A DNA stretch of 19,515 nt, taken from Candidatus Poribacteria bacterium (GTDB taxonomy: Bacteria > Poribacteria > DTPJ01 > WJIO01). The DNA lies in NCBI GenBank assembly GCA_014730235.1, contig WJIO01000081.1, positions 1-19,515 on the forward strand. Direction: 5' to 3'. A program made the position numbers and the translations under genes. Of the stretch, positions 6,317 to 17,161 are shown in pieces (the first letter of the stretch is position 1; the number at the start of each line of letters is the position of its first letter). Under the pieces are notes generated by a model. It saw only the letters and a list, made by a program, of their open reading frames with translations. It was not told the origin of the DNA and ran no database searches.

Positions 6317-7390
6317 TTACCTACCATATTTTTTATATATATTATCCAGAAGGACCTTTGCTTCTTCCTCAGAACCGCAAGACGTACTGATAAGAAGTCC
6401 TTCATGCCTTAGACTGGAAAGTATATATTCTACATCACCACAGGGACATCCTATTTGCAGACATTTTCCACCATTCAGAATCCTGGAACATAAATCCATC
6501 CATTCTCTCATGGGTTTTGCTCCGGCACCAGGAACCCATTGGATACCATCAAGGGTTTCCACTTCTAAGAGATAGTCAAGATTACCGATAGCGATAGGCC
6601 CATCAAGATGGTAAATACTGTTGTCGAGGTGCTGAGAAAGCGCAATAACATCTTCATAAAGGAAGAATTCTTTGAACATTTCCGGAGAAATTAGACCTGA
6701 AAAGTCATTCTGAAGGGCCACATATTTCCCCCGGGAGTAGGCTGGAATCCACGTTATCGAACCTTCCTGATCCCTTGATATTCTATCATAATATATATTA
6801 AAAATTTCAATATATATATCCGTAAGCTTTTTCATAACCCTCTTAATATCATCGGGTTTATCATAAAGATCCATAGCTAGTCTTCCCGCATCAAAGGCAG
6901 CTACAAGGGAGTCACCTCCACCGTGCATATCTGGAATACCAACCAGATATCTGCCTTTTGCGGTTTCACAGGCAGCGTCAATCAGATCATTCATGAAAAT
7001 CCACCATTTGTTATTTTTATCAAAAACAGGATCATAATCAGAAATGTCTTCAACAAAAGATTTTACCCATGATGTATGATTATCTTTAAATACAATTTCG
7101 CCGCCCAGATATGCAGTAAATGAATCAGGTCCTATGTTGGGCCAGAAAGACGGTATAGCATCGCCATAATATGCTGTATTACTAAGATTAAGGTCTGTCC
7201 GTTTGAGTATATATTCAATATCCGTCCACCGGGCTTCTATAGTGTCAGGAATAGAGAAATCTATCTGTTTTCGTTCTCTACGAGGTGCTGTAATAGCTAC
7301 CATAGGTCTGTCAATTATTTCTTTATTCCAAAACGCGTCAAATCGCTTTTTTATCTGTTCAAAATCAATTCTTTCCAGATGGGATTCCAT
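6317..7390 (-). CDS. URO-D/corrinoid methyltransferase-like protein
   Basis: A 357-residue protein of the uroporphyrinogen decarboxylase-like superfamily, which includes MtaA-type methyltransferases acting on corrinoid proteins or thiols. Family features are DRPMVAI near the N-terminus (27-33), GIPDMHGGGDSLVAAF (151-166), SYSRG-type loop PAYSRGKY (216-223), YHLDGP (260-265), IQWVPGAGA (283-291), GCPCGDVE (314-321) and STSCGSEEEA (335-344). H261 with C315 or C317 and C338 could form a metal site as in MtaA-like enzymes. This is not the haem-pathway HemE: the N-terminal HemE signature is absent. GGAGGT lies 5 nt before the ATG. It is a lone minus-strand gene with no corrinoid protein beside it, so its substrate is unknown. 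Confidence 0.75.
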   Translation of the reverse strand: MESHLERIDFEQIKKRFDAFWNKEIIDRPMVAITAPRRERKQIDFSIPDTIEARWTDIEYILKRTDLNLSNTAYYGDAIPSFWPNIGPDSFTAYLGGEIVFKDNHTSWVKSFVEDISDYDPVFDKNNKWWIFMNDLIDAACETAKGRYLVGIPDMHGGGDSLVAAFDAGRLAMDLYDKPDDIKRVMKKLTDIYIEIFNIYYDRISRDQEGSITWIPAYSRGKYVALQNDFSGLISPEMFKEFFLYEDVIALSQHLDNSIYHLDGPIAIGNLDYLLEVETLDGIQWVPGAGAKPMREWMDLCSRILNGGKCLQIGCPCGDVEYILSSLRHEGLLISTSCGSEEEAKVLLDNIYKKYGR

Positions 7391-7652: not shown

Positions 7653-8135
7653 ATGGATAATCAATTCTCAATTCAGGAGATAGTAGAGATAGCGATAGAA
7701 ATTGAGAAAAATGGAGCGCAGCTTTATAAATCTTTAACCGAATTAGCAGAGACATCCCACGTAAAAGAACTCTTCTCCTATCTCACCGAAGAGGAAAAAC
7801 GTCATGTATCCAGATTTGAGGAAATACTTATTTCTCTAGGGGGTTATCAAATACCAAAAGACTATTATACACTGGAATATATGGACTATATGAAGGCCCT
7901 GGCTGATGAACAAGTATTTCACAAAGATATTAAACCTCTGGAAGTAGCAAAAGCAATTAAAACACCGCTAGAAGCTGTCGAAATGGCGATAGGGTTTGAA
8001 AAAGACTCTATAATCTTTCTTTATGAAATGAGGGATATGGTTCCCGATAATGATAAAGAATCCATCCAGAAGCTGGTAAACGAAGAACGGGATCATATCA
8101 GAAGATTATCAGCTATAAAAAATCAAATCACATAA
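7653..8135 (+). CDS. Rubrerythrin-like di-iron ferritin-fold protein
   Basis: A 160-residue four-helix-bundle protein with all carboxylate/His ligands of a di-iron site in order: E18 (helix A), E48-x-x-H51 (helix B, EEEKRH), E116 (helix C, GFEKDS) and E145-x-x-H148 (helix D, EERDHI). It lacks the C-terminal rubredoxin domain of classical rubrerythrin, so it needs an external electron donor. The family commonly reduces peroxide in anaerobes or handles iron. It is the first gene of the operon, 31 bp before the AhpF-like flavoprotein, and the disulfide/flavin proteins that follow could supply reducing equivalents. A GAAAGGA site precedes the ATG by 10 nt. Its first helical pair aligns without gaps with the N-terminus of the phosphatase at the operon's end. 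Confidence 0.85.
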   Translation: MDNQFSIQEIVEIAIEIEKNGAQLYKSLTELAETSHVKELFSYLTEEEKRHVSRFEEILISLGGYQIPKDYYTLEYMDYMKALADEQVFHKDIKPLEVAKAIKTPLEAVEMAIGFEKDSIIFLYEMRDMVPDNDKESIQKLVNEERDHIRRLSAIKNQIT

Positions 8136-8166: not shown

Positions 8167-9159
8167 ATGGGATCGGACATACTGAACCTTGAACTTATTC
8201 TGCCTGAAGATGAACAGGAAAGAATTTCTAATAGTGACGATATATACGACCTTCTAATTATTGGTGGTGGTTCTGCTGGTATGACTTCAGCAGTCTATGC
8301 AGCCCGAAAGCAGATGAAAACGCTGCTTATAAGTAAAGACCTGGGAGGTCAGCTCCTCTGGACTTCTGATATTGAAAATTACATGGGATATCAATATATT
8401 ACAGGAAGAGAATTAACAGATAAATTCAAGGCTCAGATGCAGCAGTTCCCTATTGTTGATATTATTACCGGGATAAATGTAGAAAAAATTTCCAGACAGG
8501 ATAACCTTTTTTTGGCTTTAACAGAAAATGGTAAAAGTTACAGGGGAAAAACCATTATTATCGCAACGGGAAAACGTTACAGACCGCTTAACGTTCCCGG
8601 TGAAAAAGAATTAGTTGGGAAAGGTATTAGCTATTGCGCAACATGCGACGCTCCTTTATATAAAGGCAAGGATGTAGCTGTTATAGGTGGGGGAAATTCG
8701 GGGATTACATCGGTTATTGATCTTAGAAATATTTCAAATAATATCTATGTTATTAATAATTCCAATGTATGGCAGGCTGATCCTGTGCTTATAGAAAGGA
8801 TCAAAGATGCAGAAAATTTCATACCTATGCTTTCCCATAACGTATTAGCTATTCACGGTAAAGATTCGGTAACAGGTATAACAGTCCAGTCTATAAAAAC
8901 AGGGGAGCAAAAAACTCTTGATATCCAGGGGGTATTTATTGAGATCGGCCTTTTGCCCAATTCCGAACTTGTAAAAGAGATTATATCCCTTACTGACTTA
9001 GGGGAAATTATGGTTGACTGTGGTTGTAGAACTGCTGTTCCCGGTCTTTTTGGAGCCGGGGATGTCACAACTGTTCCTGAAAAACAGATTGGTGTAGCCA
9101 TTGGTGAAGGAATAAAAGCAAGTCTGAGCGCATATAAATATTTATTAAGAATGACATAG
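8167..9159 (+). CDS. AhpF/TrxB-like FAD-dependent pyridine nucleotide-disulfide reductase
   Basis: A 330-residue flavoprotein with FAD loop GGGSAG (33-38), redox pair CATCD (C157, C160), nucleotide loop GGGNSG (174-179) and the second FAD motif GAGD (296-299). The HRRDRLR motif that recognises the NADPH phosphate is missing; the equivalent region is VINNSNVWQADPVLIERI, which resembles the NADH-using AhpF pattern (AD-x-VL). The C-terminal third (IEIGLLPNSEL, GDVTTVPEKQI, GEGIKASLSAYKYL) is also AhpF-like. So it is probably an NADH:disulfide reductase corresponding to the C-terminal part of AhpF. An N-terminal extension of about 25 acidic residues precedes the FAD fold. GGAGGT lies 6 nt before the ATG. 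The AhpF N-terminal module seems to be supplied by the next gene, 12 bp downstream. Confidence 0.88.
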   Translation: MGSDILNLELILPEDEQERISNSDDIYDLLIIGGGSAGMTSAVYAARKQMKTLLISKDLGGQLLWTSDIENYMGYQYITGRELTDKFKAQMQQFPIVDIITGINVEKISRQDNLFLALTENGKSYRGKTIIIATGKRYRPLNVPGEKELVGKGISYCATCDAPLYKGKDVAVIGGGNSGITSVIDLRNISNNIYVINNSNVWQADPVLIERIKDAENFIPMLSHNVLAIHGKDSVTGITVQSIKTGEQKTLDIQGVFIEIGLLPNSELVKEIISLTDLGEIMVDCGCRTAVPGLFGAGDVTTVPEKQIGVAIGEGIKASLSAYKYLLRMT

Positions 9160-9171
9160 GAGGAATTTATT

Positions 9172-9813
9172 ATGGGCCTAATTAAAGAATCCCAACAAGA
9201 ACAATTGAAGGAAAAATTTAAAGACCTTGATGAAAAAATAAAACTGATAGTATTTACACAGGAGATGGAATGTCAATATTGTCGGGAGACCAGAGGTCTT
9301 ATGGAGGATCTGGCGGATCTGGCGGATAAAATAGATATAGAAGTCTATGATTTCGTAAATGATAAGGAAAAAGTAGAAGAATACAATATAGATAAAATAC
9401 CAGCGACAGTAGTTGAGGGTGAAAAAGACTATGGAGTAAGGTTTTATGGTATACCTGCCGGATATGAATTTACATCCCTGGTTGCCACTATTATGAATAT
9501 ATCCAGCAGTGAATCCGAGCTTTCAGAAAAAACAATTGAAGAACTAAAGAAGATTGATAAACCATTAAATATTGATATATTTGTTACATTAACATGCCCA
9601 TACTGTCCAAATGCAGTAGAGATAGCCCATAAGCTTGCAAAAGAAAATGATTTTATCAAATCAAATATGATCGAATCATCAGAATTTCCTGAACTTATGC
9701 AAAAGAACAATATAACATCTGTTCCTACTGTTGTCGTTAATAATGATATGAACTTTCCCGGTAATTTACCGGAAAAGGAATTTGTTGATAACCTTATAAA
9801 AGCTGTTACTTGA
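9172..9813 (+). CDS. Glutaredoxin-like protein disulfide oxidoreductase (two thioredoxin folds)
   Basis: A 213-residue protein with two tandem thioredoxin folds. Each has a CxxC active site, CQYC (34-37) and CPYC (142-145), and a cis-proline further on, KIPATV (P77) and SVPTVV (P185). This is the PDO architecture, related to the N-terminal domain of AhpF, except that AhpF keeps only one active CxxC. No signal peptide, so it acts in the cytoplasm. AGGAGGA precedes the ATG, 12 bp after the flavoprotein stop, so the two are cotranscribed. The likely electron path is NADH, the flavoprotein, this protein, then a peroxidase or cellular disulfides. No peroxiredoxin gene lies in the window; the rubrerythrin-like protein is a candidate acceptor. 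Confidence 0.9.
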   Translation: MGLIKESQQEQLKEKFKDLDEKIKLIVFTQEMECQYCRETRGLMEDLADLADKIDIEVYDFVNDKEKVEEYNIDKIPATVVEGEKDYGVRFYGIPAGYEFTSLVATIMNISSSESELSEKTIEELKKIDKPLNIDIFVTLTCPYCPNAVEIAHKLAKENDFIKSNMIESSEFPELMQKNNITSVPTVVVNNDMNFPGNLPEKEFVDNLIKAVT

Positions 9814-9900: not shown

Positions 9901-10143
9901 ATGGCAGACCTTAAGAAATTCACTTTAGAAGAACTTGCCGAATATAACGGTCAGGATGGTAAACCGGCTTACATTGCTTATAAAGGCAAGGTATATGATG
10001 TAAGTGAAAGCTGGTTATGGGAAGATGGTGATCATCAAGGGCTTCATGAAGCCGGTAAAGACCTGACCGATGAAATTGACGATGCACCCCATGAAGAAGA
10101 CTCCCTGGAAGATTTACCAGTTGTAGGTACACTCGAGGAATAA
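9901..10143 (+). CDS. Small cytochrome b5-like haem-binding domain protein
   Basis: An 80-residue acidic single-domain protein of the cytochrome b5-like haem/steroid-binding family. Visible family pattern: FTLEELAEYNGQDGKPAYIAY (7-27), KVYDVS (30-35), DHQGLHEAGKDLT (44-56) and APHEEDSLEDLPVVGTL (62-78). H45 or H49 and H64 are candidate axial ligands. There is no membrane segment or signal peptide, so it should be cytoplasmic. It follows the disulfide oxidoreductase after an 87-bp gap and precedes the phosphatase fusion by 4 bp, so tight coupling is to the phosphatase. Haem binding would let it act as an electron carrier or ligand sensor; which of these is not evident. AAGGAG precedes the ATG by 10 nt. 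Confidence 0.85.
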   Translation: MADLKKFTLEELAEYNGQDGKPAYIAYKGKVYDVSESWLWEDGDHQGLHEAGKDLTDEIDDAPHEEDSLEDLPVVGTLEE

Positions 10144-10147
10144 ATTA

Positions 10148-11242
10148 ATGAATATATTTGATGCTATCAAAGTAGCAATACGTTCTGAGATTGGCGCACA
10201 GAAGATGTATACCAGATTAGCTGAAGAAACCTCTGATGAAGAAGCAAAAGCCCTCTTTAGCTATCTGGAAAGATACGAAGAAATGCACCAGAGTTTTCTG
10301 GAAGCTGAACGAACAGCACTAGCCGCTGCAAAAAATGATGGAGGTGGAAGGCCTTCACACTGGCTGAAAATCCTTCATGATGAAATAAACGAGCAAACTG
10401 GTGAAAATAATGAATCAGTGGATCAGGTTTATCTGGATTTAGCTGCAACAAAAGGTATTGCCCAGATATTAAAAAACGCCAATGATGAATTACAAAACAA
10501 GCAAGCCCGTTACGAGCAGGAGCTTTCTATTGCAGCCGATATCCAGAACAAGCTCTTACCCCAGAATATACCTCAGAGTACCGGACTTCAGATAGCAGCA
10601 TCTAATATAATGGCAAGATCTGTAGGTGGCGATTATTATGACTTTGTTATGGATAATCATGGTCGTCTCGCTTTAGTAGTAGCCGATACAATGGGTAAAG
10701 GCATTCCCGCCGCCCTTCTTATGACTAATATCAGAGCAATATGGCGCAGTTTTGCCAATATGAATTTTGAATCACCAGGACAAACACTTGAAATGATAAA
10801 TCGCTCAGGTTATGAAGATATGAAAGCCGCTGAGGCTTTTATAACTATGTTTAACGCCACCTACGATCCTATTAACTGCAATTTTATTTACTCCGGTGCA
10901 GGTCACAACCCACCTATTTACTTACCTGCATCCAGCAAAGAATGTATACAACTGGAAGAAGGGGGATTACCTGTAGGTATTTTCCCTGAGACTGATTTTC
11001 CATCTGATGGCTTTAAATTACATGATAACGATATTATCGTTATATATACCGATGGAGTTGTTGAAGCTACTAATAAAAACGGAGTAGTATTTGGTTACGA
11101 AAGGTTATGTGATATTCTGTATTCCCAACAGTTTACCTGTGCCCAGGATATAAGCGATGCCATACACTCAGAATTATATTCTTACACAGAAGGTTCAGAG
11201 CAAGCTGATGATATAACTCTTGTAGTTCTTAGAAAGTCTTAA
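10148..11242 (+). CDS. Half-ferritin (di-iron type) domain fused to SpoIIE/RsbU-type PP2C phosphatase
   Basis: A 364-residue fusion. Residues 1-60 are two ferritin-like helices. They align without gaps to the first half of the rubrerythrin-like protein at 7653, sharing the LFSYL block, and keep E14, E44 and H47 at the ligand positions (E18, E48, H51 there). Residues 100-137 are a probable coiled coil (ELQNKQARYEQELSIAADIQ) leading into a PP2C-like SpoIIE domain (about 138-364). Its metal-binding acidic residues are present: GGDYYDF (D162), VADTMGKGIPAALL (D180), YTDGVVEA (D302) and ADDITLVVL (D354/D355). Such phosphatases act on anti-anti-sigma (STAS) or similar phosphoproteins. A half-bundle would have to dimerise to build a di-iron site. 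The gene starts 4 bp after the cytochrome-b5-like gene, with GAGG upstream. No anti-sigma or STAS partner is visible nearby. Confidence 0.88.
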   Translation: MNIFDAIKVAIRSEIGAQKMYTRLAEETSDEEAKALFSYLERYEEMHQSFLEAERTALAAAKNDGGGRPSHWLKILHDEINEQTGENNESVDQVYLDLAATKGIAQILKNANDELQNKQARYEQELSIAADIQNKLLPQNIPQSTGLQIAASNIMARSVGGDYYDFVMDNHGRLALVVADTMGKGIPAALLMTNIRAIWRSFANMNFESPGQTLEMINRSGYEDMKAAEAFITMFNATYDPINCNFIYSGAGHNPPIYLPASSKECIQLEEGGLPVGIFPETDFPSDGFKLHDNDIIVIYTDGVVEATNKNGVVFGYERLCDILYSQQFTCAQDISDAIHSELYSYTEGSEQADDITLVVLRKS

Positions 11243-13911: not shown

Positions 13912-14655
13912 ATGTATCGTGTGAAATTATTATTTATTGCTCTGGTTCTATTTCTTGTTGCCGGGATGGTACAGGCCCAGGAATTTGTGGTTGATGGTCT
14001 GATCGCTATGTGGACTATGGATGATGCAGACATAGACGGTGATACAGTAAAAGACGCATCAGGCAATGGCAATGATGCCACAATCATGGGCACCGTACAA
14101 TTTACCAATGGTGTCATCGGTAAAGCATTGCTTCTTGATGGTACAGTAAATAATTACATCGAAATCCCGGACATGGGAGAGATGGAAACCGATTCTGTCG
14201 AATGCTGGGCTTACGAAGAAGCCTTTGCCGGGATACAGGGAATCATCTCCACATGGCAGTGGGAAGCAGGCAAAGTTCACTTTAAATTTGAAAGCAATCA
14301 GATTCAGGTGGACAAAAATGGGGTTGGAAAAATTACATCTCCAGGCGTTAATCAGCAGTGGTATCACATTATCTATACCCAGGGAATAGACGACGGTATC
14401 AAGCTGTATGTGGATGGTGAGTTAGCCAGTGAACTTCCCAGCGCAGGAGCATTACCTGAAAACTGGCACGAAAGAAGGATAGGAAGTGAACATGACGGTA
14501 GATTCCTGAACGGCATGATAGATGAAGTTCGGGTATATAATCGCATATTGACTCCCGAGGAAGTGACAAAGAATTTTGAGGTTACTTCAAATAAAATGGC
14601 AGTAGAACACGTTGGTAAATTGACATCTACATGGGGTAATATTAAGCAATTTTAG
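13912..14655 (+). CDS. Exported LamG (concanavalin A-like) domain protein, copy 1
   Basis: A 247-residue protein with a Sec signal peptide (hydrophobic LLFIALVLFLVAG, likely cut after A22 in VQA-QE). A single LamG/jellyroll domain follows: DGLIAMWTMDD, VKDASGNGNDATIMG, IGKALLLDG, IEIPDMG, SVECWAYEE, a WHERRIGSEHDGRFLNG stretch and IDEVRVYNRILTPEEV. The domain generally binds carbohydrate or protein ligands outside the cell; the ligand is unknown. The last 20 residues (VEHVGKLTSTWGNIKQF) resemble those of the downstream copy. GGAGTG lies 6 nt before the ATG. Copy 2 begins 108 bp downstream. Confidence 0.88.
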   Translation: MYRVKLLFIALVLFLVAGMVQAQEFVVDGLIAMWTMDDADIDGDTVKDASGNGNDATIMGTVQFTNGVIGKALLLDGTVNNYIEIPDMGEMETDSVECWAYEEAFAGIQGIISTWQWEAGKVHFKFESNQIQVDKNGVGKITSPGVNQQWYHIIYTQGIDDGIKLYVDGELASELPSAGALPENWHERRIGSEHDGRFLNGMIDEVRVYNRILTPEEVTKNFEVTSNKMAVEHVGKLTSTWGNIKQF

Positions 14656-14763: not shown

Positions 14764-15504
14764 ATGCTAAAAAAATTAGTTTTTTCAATTTCTGCTCTTA
14801 TGGTTATGGCTCTTACCGTCAATGCGCAAGAGTTTGTAACAGATGGTCTGATTCTCATGTATACTTTCGATAGTGGGGATGTATCAGGTGATACTGTCGC
14901 AGATGTATCAGGAACTGGTAACGACGGTACAGCAATGGGTACTGTAAACTATACATCCGGAATGATCGGTGATGCCCTTATGCTGGATGGAACAGATGGT
15001 TATATTGAAATTCCGGCCATGGGTTCTTTTGAACAGGTTTCAGTAGAATGTTGGGTATACGAAGAAGCCTTTGCCGGTATTCAGGGAATCGTCTCCACAT
15101 GGCAGTGGGAAGCAGGTAAAGTTCACTATAAATTTGAAAGCAATCAGATTCAGGTAGATAAGAATGGTGCAGGTAAGATAACAGCAGATGCTGAAGCCCA
15201 GACATGGTATCATGTTGTTTATACTACAGACACTATCGGCGATGCCTTGAAGCTGTATGTGGATGGTGAACTTGCAGCAGACGGTCCAGGCGGAGCAGGT
15301 GTAAATGAGTTATGGGATGAGAGACGAGTTGGCAGCGAACACGACGGCAGATTCCTGAACGGTATGGTAGACGAAGTAAGGGTTTATGACCGGGTTTTGT
15401 CCGCTGATGAGGTTGTTAATAATTTTGCTGTAACAACAAATGTAATGACTGCTGTTAAACCTTCAGGCAAAGCAGCTACTACATGGGGTAGTATAAAACT
15501 TTAA
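14764..15504 (+). CDS. Exported LamG (concanavalin A-like) domain protein, copy 2
   Basis: A 246-residue paralogue of the preceding gene, colinear along its whole length. The signal peptide is different in sequence (LVFSISALMVMALTVNA, likely cut after A21) but the mature start QEF is the same. The middle of the domain, EEAFAGIQGIVSTWQWEAGK and the following HYKFESNQIQVDKNG, is almost identical in protein and DNA to copy 1, while the flanks have diverged. It ends in KPSGKAATTWGSIKL, sharing GK, T-x-TWG and IK with copy 1. AAAGGGAG precedes the ATG. A hairpin terminator follows 38 bp after the stop. Confidence 0.88.
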   Translation: MLKKLVFSISALMVMALTVNAQEFVTDGLILMYTFDSGDVSGDTVADVSGTGNDGTAMGTVNYTSGMIGDALMLDGTDGYIEIPAMGSFEQVSVECWVYEEAFAGIQGIVSTWQWEAGKVHYKFESNQIQVDKNGAGKITADAEAQTWYHVVYTTDTIGDALKLYVDGELAADGPGGAGVNELWDERRVGSEHDGRFLNGMVDEVRVYDRVLSADEVVNNFAVTTNVMTAVKPSGKAATTWGSIKL

Positions 15505-15928: not shown

Positions 15929-15955
15929 TGAGCACGCCAAAGCGTGCCCAGTTTT
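15929..15955 (+). repeat. Hairpin repeat copy B, downstream of the UPF0175 gene
   Basis: GCACGC (15932-15937) pairs with GCGTGC (15942-15947) around CAAA, followed by CCCAGTTTTT. It matches copy A at all but two positions across TATGxGCACGCCAAxGCGTG and the following CCCAGTTTT. The outer stem has one mismatch that copy A does not have. It probably terminates the UPF0175 transcript. Confidence 0.7.
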
Positions 15956-15982
15956 TATATGAATAAAATAAAGGAAATACAA

Positions 15983-17161
15983 ATGAGTTCTATACCGCAA
16001 AAGGACAAAAAAATCCTTCGGGAATTGGGTAGAGAGATAGTAGAAGCGGCGGCTGATCCGGTTAACGAGGAACGCAGGGAAATACATCGTCGTATAAATA
16101 ATTTTGAAAAGGTAAAACCCTGGATCACCATTTTTCAGGAACCCTGGAACGAACTGAATGTAAACGGGGAACTGGATATCCATTGCCAGGATGACTTTTC
16201 TCGTGGTATAGAATCAGGAATGAGACGCACTCTTTTCAAGTGGCGGCATTATCCTGGTGATATGACCATATCCCCGGTTTCTGTGCAACCCTATTGTATT
16301 CATGACACAGGTTTTGGAATTTCAGAAAAAGTTGATGTAGCCCGTACCGATCCTACCAACAGCGTGGTTTCCCGTCATTTTCACATACAGATCAAAGATG
16401 AAGAGGATATATCAAAAATTAAGAAGCCAGTGGTAACTCATGATGAAAAACTGACGGAAGAATATTACCAGAAACGGTGTGAAATATTCCATGACATCCT
16501 AGAAGTCAGAAAATCCGGGGTAGGTTCGTTCTGGTTTGCCCCATGGGATGAATTGGTCAGATGGACAGGAGTGCAAGAGGTGTTGATGGACATGATTGCC
16601 CGACCGGAATTCGTCCATAAAGCTATAGGTCATTTTGTAGATTGCTGGCTGCACCGTCTGGATCAATACGAAGAGCAAAATCTCTTATCTGCACCAGCAA
16701 AAAAATTGGGGGTAACAGGTGCGGCACAGATATTCTCAGAGGTATCTCCGGCCATGCATGGTGAATTTGCCCTTCAACATGAAGCCAGGTTCTATAAACG
16801 ATTTGGTAAAACATACTATGGTTGCTGTGAGCCACTTCATGACAAGGTAGATATATGCGCCCAGTATCTTCCAAATCTATATAAAATATCAATGAGTCCA
16901 TGGGTGGATTTTCCCAAAGCGGCAGAAAATGTGGGTAATAGATTTATCTTCGCCTGGAAACCAAATCCTGCCTTTGTAGCTTATGACCATTGGGATCCGG
17001 AATTAGTTCGCAGGGATATAAAGGAAAAGATGGCAATTGCTTCGGCAAACGATTGTATAATGGAAGTCCATCTTAAAGATATTAGCACTGTGAGATATGA
17101 CCTGCGAAGACTCACAGAATGGAATCAGATAGCCCAGGAATGTGCGGCTGAATATGTATAG
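15983..17161 (+). CDS. URO-D-like methyltransferase-family protein, second and divergent
   Basis: A 392-residue protein with the C-terminal half of a URO-D/methyltransferase-like barrel: FAPWDELVRWTGVQEVLMDM, then PEFVHKAI, the late YYGCCEPLHDK motif (C281, C282, H286: possible metal/thiol site), KISMSPWVDFPKAAENVG, and WKPNPAF. It shares the superfamily with the gene at 6317 but little sequence, so they are not recent duplicates. I chose ATG 15983 because AAAGGA lies 7 nt upstream. The longer frame opening at GTG 15944 begins inside the terminator hairpin. The gene is followed after 10 bp by the propeller protein. No corrinoid protein gene is nearby and the substrate is unknown. Confidence 0.72.
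   Translation: MSSIPQKDKKILRELGREIVEAAADPVNEERREIHRRINNFEKVKPWITIFQEPWNELNVNGELDIHCQDDFSRGIESGMRRTLFKWRHYPGDMTISPVSVQPYCIHDTGFGISEKVDVARTDPTNSVVSRHFHIQIKDEEDISKIKKPVVTHDEKLTEEYYQKRCEIFHDILEVRKSGVGSFWFAPWDELVRWTGVQEVLMDMIARPEFVHKAIGHFVDCWLHRLDQYEEQNLLSAPAKKLGVTGAAQIFSEVSPAMHGEFALQHEARFYKRFGKTYYGCCEPLHDKVDICAQYLPNLYKISMSPWVDFPKAAENVGNRFIFAWKPNPAFVAYDHWDPELVRRDIKEKMAIASANDCIMEVHLKDISTVRYDLRRLTEWNQIAQECAAEYV

Follow-up and report, generated by a model that had tools for sequence, protein, structure and literature searches.

A candidate half-ferritin input on a SpoIIE-type phosphatase from Candidatus Poribacteria

We have identified a predicted signalling protein, P0001, a phosphatase of the SpoIIE type whose input appears undescribed and which seems to belong to a family of half-ferritin sensors. 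Its N-terminal hairpin is a recurrent input module on dimeric outputs, since nucleotidyl cyclase and histidine kinase fusions carry the same hairpin and the same site residues. Additionally, the hairpin has the look of an undescribed iron or redox sensor module.

P0001 is encoded within a window of 19,515 nucleotides (the whole stretch of DNA that was analysed), as the fifth and final gene of a same-strand row. The genes of this row, and the parts of P0001, are as follows.

7653..8135, + strand: rubrerythrin, gene 1 of the row (PF02915, E=3.1e-12)
8167..9159, + strand: AhpF C-half / thioredoxin-reductase-like flavoprotein (TIGR03140 residues 203-514, E=1.2e-100, below the curated cut-off)
9172..9813, + strand: glutaredoxin-like protein disulfide oxidoreductase, AhpF N-half-like (TIGR02187, 270.8 bits against a cut-off of 185)
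9901..10143, + strand: cytochrome b5-like heme protein, 80 aa (PF00173, E=6.7e-12; sequence)
10148..11242, + strand: P0001, half-ferritin / coiled coil / SpoIIE-type PPM phosphatase, 364 aa (open reading frame, Pfam, alignment, model, fold match)
10148..10336, + strand: half-ferritin hairpin, residues 1-63, helices 3-27 and 31-63 (PF02915, 2fzf, model, EncB superposition)
10337..10450, + strand: linker, residues 64-101, rich in Gly, Asn and Glu (pLDDT <50 at 65-73 and 91-108)
10454..10555, + strand: coiled-coil signalling helix, residues 103-136, running into the phosphatase (models; heptad pattern)
10562..11239, + strand: SpoIIE/RsbU-type PPM phosphatase domain, residues 139-364 (SpoIIE Pfam, invariant Asp, SiaA fold)

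The reading frame, its coordinates and both domains are as the first-pass annotation had described them. The genes of the row are separated by gaps of 31, 12, 87 and 4 bases, the last lying between the stop codon of the cytochrome b5-like frame and the ATG of P0001, and the right-hand neighbour of P0001 lies on the opposite strand. G+C content is 0.40 in the hairpin part of the gene, 0.39 in the phosphatase part and 0.33-0.43 in neighbouring genes, a likeness that disfavours chimeric assembly of P0001. A PerR-type box was sought in the window and rejected, as four matches at three mismatches compare with 5.5 expected, and a promoter scan gave a signal too close to noise for use.

AhpF is apparently split in this window (8167-9813), with the flavoprotein half followed by the glutaredoxin-like half, and it adjoins rubrerythrin, not AhpC. 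It is also seen that a bacterial redox gene row contains an 80-residue cytochrome b5-like frame (9901-10143). Elsewhere in the window, two neighbouring LamG/concanavalin-like proteins (13912-14655 and 14764-15504) are nearly alike, and their duplication looks recent. The frames at 6317-7390 (-) and 15944-17161 (+) gave only marginal URO-D matches and are possibly relatives of corrinoid methyltransferases.

As had been claimed for residues 1-60, the hairpin aligns to the first half of the operon rubrerythrin, ungapped past residue 1 and with 35% identity. E14, Y21, E44 and H47 of the hairpin stand opposite E18, Y25, E48 and H51 of the rubrerythrin; the three acidic and histidine positions were already on the earlier list, which lacked Y21, the fourth conserved site residue. 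The expected ferritin-like match is present in this region: residues 1-64 alone score 23.3 bits against PF02915 (Rubrerythrin), passing the curated cut-off of 22.8, and full-length P0001 scores 19.5 bits, below that cut-off. When residues 1-124 were compared with solved structures by phmmer, the only significant match was to 2fzf, a P. furiosus ferritin-like protein (E=6.6e-7), and it occurred in both 2fzf halves. A profile built from the other fusions only scored residues 1-124 at 36.7 bits, and 2000 shuffles of residues 1-64 reached a maximum of 14.7. A second ExxH hairpin is absent from residues 64-138 and PF02915 spans one half only; thus P0001 is not a complete rubrerythrin, and a complete site would therefore need a second chain.

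The N-terminus is predicted with moderate confidence (pLDDT 65-86). The best solved matches of the hairpin model in Foldseek were the half-ferritins EncB and EncFtn, with E-values that are weak (0.1) because a 60-residue hairpin holds little information. Structural alignment also ranked EncB best, at 0.6 A over 59 residues with Z 10.5 (EncB chains superpose at 0.5-0.6 A over 53-59 residues). Because unrelated helical hairpins appear in the same fold list at Z 8-9, the fold alone is insufficient as proof of a ferritin-like identity, which the sequence and ligands of the hairpin do supply. P0001 falls outside the encapsulin cargo ferritin family NF058679, with 14.0 bits against the 90 required, and no encapsulin gene was found among the scanned frames of the window.

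The di-iron site of EncFtn consists of Glu32, Glu62 and His65 with Tyr39, contributed by two chains, and sits at an antiparallel four-helix dimer interface, where metal stabilises the dimer (PMC5012862). In P0001 the E-Y-E-H residues are offset by 0, +7, +30 and +33, exactly as are E32/Y39/E62/H65 of EncFtn. The first alignment of P0001 with the cyclase and kinase fusions, which are ~31% identical to it, has nine invariant hairpin columns (A10, E14, Y21, D30, E32, L36, E44, H47 and L51), and all four site residues are among them; the L36 column has I in two later-added sequences. E, Y, E and H are unchanged and identically spaced in 28 of 28 cyclase and 3 of 3 kinase fusions, an invariance test biased by the picking of fusions by similarity, yet the remaining hairpin differs at ~70% of positions. 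This conservation was judged across the cyclase and kinase fusions, the SpoIIE version being a single sequence. The exact EncFtn spacing and the invariance in fusions, as sequence features, strengthen the idea of an inter-chain di-iron site.

Long frames recovered with residues 1-64 from the 395 genomes of a Desulfobacterota sample are other signalling fusions, among them seven with a class III nucleotidyl cyclase and two with a HisKA/HATPase histidine kinase (four of these first nine were scanned with Pfam, and all four were confirmed). With a hairpin profile, one class of this sample proved to carry the cyclase fusion in 28 of its 29 genomes, one copy each, and one order to carry the histidine kinase fusion in 3 of its 10; sequence comparison located the expected output domain in all 28 cyclase and all 3 kinase fusions. 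The cyclase fusions (loci L060-L062, L065-L067, L069, L120-L125, L127, L131-L144 and L149, the last in a genome outside those listed in the class search) are joined almost without a linker; the kinase fusions are at L063, L064 and L114. Cyclases, histidine kinases and SpoIIE phosphatases all function as dimers.

Stand-alone half-ferritins of 65-85 residues with the complete motif are frequent in a sample of the phylum to which a Thermincola genome belongs, and also occur in the Desulfobacterota sample (L097 and L150-L156). One other frame (L088, G628:C15:47841-48008) carries a half-ferritin-like hairpin followed by ~220 residues without a Pfam match. Long-frame matches in the phylum of P0001 itself were judged by eye to be ferritin-membrane (MbfA-like) proteins.

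We tentatively suggest, at a little less than an even chance, that the half-ferritin is a general and undescribed plug-in sensor. Its di-iron site would be completed by the pairing of signalling chains, metal or redox state would be read as dimerisation or geometry, and the module would be swapped between phosphatases, cyclases and kinases.

The coiled-coil helix of P0001 spans residues 103-133 in one model and 91-136 in another, and 8 of its 11 a/d positions are hydrophobic in the best register. The PP2C-like domain, with all the metal acidic residues previously read from the sequence, is evident from a SpoIIE match (PF07228) over residues 171-362 (E=6.7e-47; 160.4 bits against a cut-off of 25). 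D162, D165, D180, D302, D354 and D355 do not vary when P0001 is aligned with three other SpoIIE proteins, and the metal-Asp motifs GGDxxD, AD..GKG, TDG and DD are all present. The model of residues 115-364 is mostly confident and matches the PPM folds of SiaA, Rv1364c, RssB and SpoIIE at Z 22-27 over 213-246 residues, with SiaA 6k4e on top (Z 26.9, 243 residues). Since the metal aspartates are present and invariant, the predicted phosphatase should be an active enzyme.

The survey for the same fusion that the first-pass annotation had proposed turned up the hairpin on cyclases and kinases, and no second half-ferritin-SpoIIE fusion among the matches listed. This holds for exact-peptide scans of viral_contigs, genome_contigs, plasmids and 58 relatives, for 84 genomes of the phylum of P0001, and for the 395 Desulfobacterota-sample genomes and 348 from the Thermincola phylum sample, scans that rare SpoIIE fusions could escape. 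A DNA pattern for the whole architecture gave five matches in genome_contigs, all out of frame and rejected as false; the pattern combined the ligands, a spacer of 102-122 residues and GGDxYD with a TAC codon, and is blind to other spacers and to TAT. Viral relatives, sought to deepen the alignment, gave one SpoIIE locus only.

Within its own genome, P0001 is the odd one out among the SpoIIE proteins, because the seven other paralogues have ordinary inputs (receiver, GAF, PocR+GAF, cNMP-binding and HAMP). Own-genome searches placed half-ferritin matches beyond P0001 in frames of 149-172 residues, with no short stand-alone ones seen. Two pairs of STAS and HATPase_c_2 (RsbW-like) genes are present in the genome (at C333 and C355 of G000), unlinked to P0001, and no anti-sigma or antagonist gene was found among the window genes scanned.

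RsbU, RsbP and RssB phosphatases are driven by exchangeable N-terminal domains via coiled-coil linkers and dimerisation; histidine kinases and diguanylate cyclases are believed to have inputs that can be swapped with these (PMC12143880). By analogy, a half-ferritin whose site would form only as a dimer fits this input logic directly. We therefore favour, with about an even chance of being right, a reading of P0001 as a soluble RsbU/SpoIIE-type serine phosphatase that is redox- or metal-gated by paired half-ferritin hairpins and acts on a STAS antagonist. Two P0001 chains would pair so that E14, E44 and H47 from both, with Y21 nearby, build one symmetric, EncFtn-like di-metal site. Metal loading, or oxidation by peroxide or O2, would alter hairpin pairing, and the change would travel via the coiled coil (~103-136) and reach the phosphatase at its dimer switch helices. 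The phosphatase would then dephosphorylate a STAS-type (RsbV-like) antagonist and so flip a partner switch. The redox gene row would place the sensor next to the peroxidase system whose load it reports.

That the gene row is redox in character (rubrerythrin, AhpF-like parts) suggests peroxide or O2 as the trigger, and the presence in the genome of two STAS and RsbW-like pairs makes a phosphorylated STAS protein the likely substrate. The earlier interpretation, a half-ferritin input with an active-looking phosphatase, is borne out by sequence, fold and comparison; its sensed signal and downstream target we still infer, along with metal binding, the dimer and the direction of regulation.

A real difficulty for this mechanism is that antiparallel pairing, as in EncFtn, would send the chain ends to opposite ends of the bundle, whereas SpoIIE and cyclase outputs would need parallel helices. 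In P0001 the flexible residues 64-101 (~40), which are of low confidence and rich in Gly, Asn and Glu, could bridge antiparallel hairpins and a parallel output. The cyclase fusions have almost no gap, and their second hairpin helix seems to continue nearly straight into the cyclase; in these proteins the site may be formed between two dimers, or the hairpins may pair differently.

Other readings of the hairpin have been weighed. It might serve dimerisation alone, two hairpins forming a four-helix bundle that keeps the phosphatase dimeric and has no functional metal site, much like the N-terminus of RsbU, which uses an N-terminal helical dimer domain (PMC12143880). Outside the site residues the P0001 hairpin has diverged strongly (~31% identity to the other fusions), which would suit such a role. 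Burying Glu and His in a core that lacks metal is costly, however, and all four site residues are nevertheless invariant across three output classes; we consider a purely structural hairpin unlikely. It is improbable, in our judgement, that the hairpin is a docking module for another half-ferritin or for the operon rubrerythrin, with the phosphatase reading the state or amount of the partner. The rubrerythrin gene lies four genes upstream and the first half of its product is 35% identical to the hairpin, and other phyla have stand-alone half-ferritins, both of which point towards docking; against it, the matches in the genome of P0001 lie in the longer frames described above, with no short stand-alone protein seen, and rubrerythrin hairpins normally pair inside their own chain.

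The metal-driven assembly of EncFtn (PMC5012862) also agrees with a site that senses ferrous iron supply, not an oxidant, where Fe(II)-driven pairing would let the phosphatase report iron sufficiency. However, the gene row is peroxide- and thiol-centred, with no gene for iron transport or storage next to it, and we hold iron sensing of this kind to be quite unlikely. Finding a single SpoIIE fusion is what an assembly or gene-fusion accident without a sensor role would leave, but P0001 is one uninterrupted frame within a same-strand row, its two parts are similar in G+C, its active-site and ligand residues are intact, and parallel fusions are fixed in another lineage, all of which make an accident very improbable.

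To our knowledge, the domains through which bacteria are known to sense oxygen or redox state are of the heme, flavin, Fe-S, thiol or hemerythrin kind. The claim that no input of this type had been described agrees with a search of the open-access literature, which found no rubrerythrin or ferritin-like domain with a SpoIIE, histidine kinase, cyclase or sensor role, and no homologue with a known non-redox input or another described role was found. A review of hemerythrin sensors mentions neither ferritin nor SpoIIE (PMC9388753); ferritin and rubrerythrin are likewise absent from a 2025 survey of the domain partners of bacterial PP2C. If the gating of P0001 by paired hairpins is true, two signalling chains would share a split di-iron site, and this would be a new principle of sensing, with dimerisation itself being the occupancy or oxidation of the metal. 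The split-site idea agrees with recent thinking, in which dimeric coiled-coil control is common to SpoIIE phosphatases, cyclases and histidine kinases, and the fusions are short, soluble proteins suited to testing it.

Among known systems, phosphatases of the RsbU/RsbP/RssB/SiaA type share with P0001 the catalytic domain, metal aspartates, coiled-coil linker and soluble dimer logic (PMC12143880), whereas known SpoIIE phosphatases have RsbU_N, PAS, GAF, receiver or HAMP inputs where P0001 has a ferritin-like half. EncFtn and EncB, the nearest solved folds, are likewise two-helix half-ferritins with identical E-Y-E-H spacing; EncFtn, however, is a decameric encapsulin cargo ferroxidase, and in P0001 the hairpin forms the N-terminal part of an enzyme of signalling. 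Rubrerythrin and erythrin (2fzf-like) proteins are homologous in sequence to the hairpin and have common ligands, but rubrerythrins are peroxidases with the two hairpins in a single chain, while P0001 has one hairpin. Hemerythrin sensors (DcrH, hemerythrin-diguanylate cyclase) resemble the proposed P0001 in using a non-heme di-iron domain as an O2 or redox input (PMC9388753), although hemerythrin is another kind of di-iron protein, whose ligands are mainly His and whose site is complete within one chain. The half-ferritin class III cyclases and histidine kinases share with P0001 the same hairpin, ligands and spacing, and differ from it in output, the cyclases being almost linker-free.
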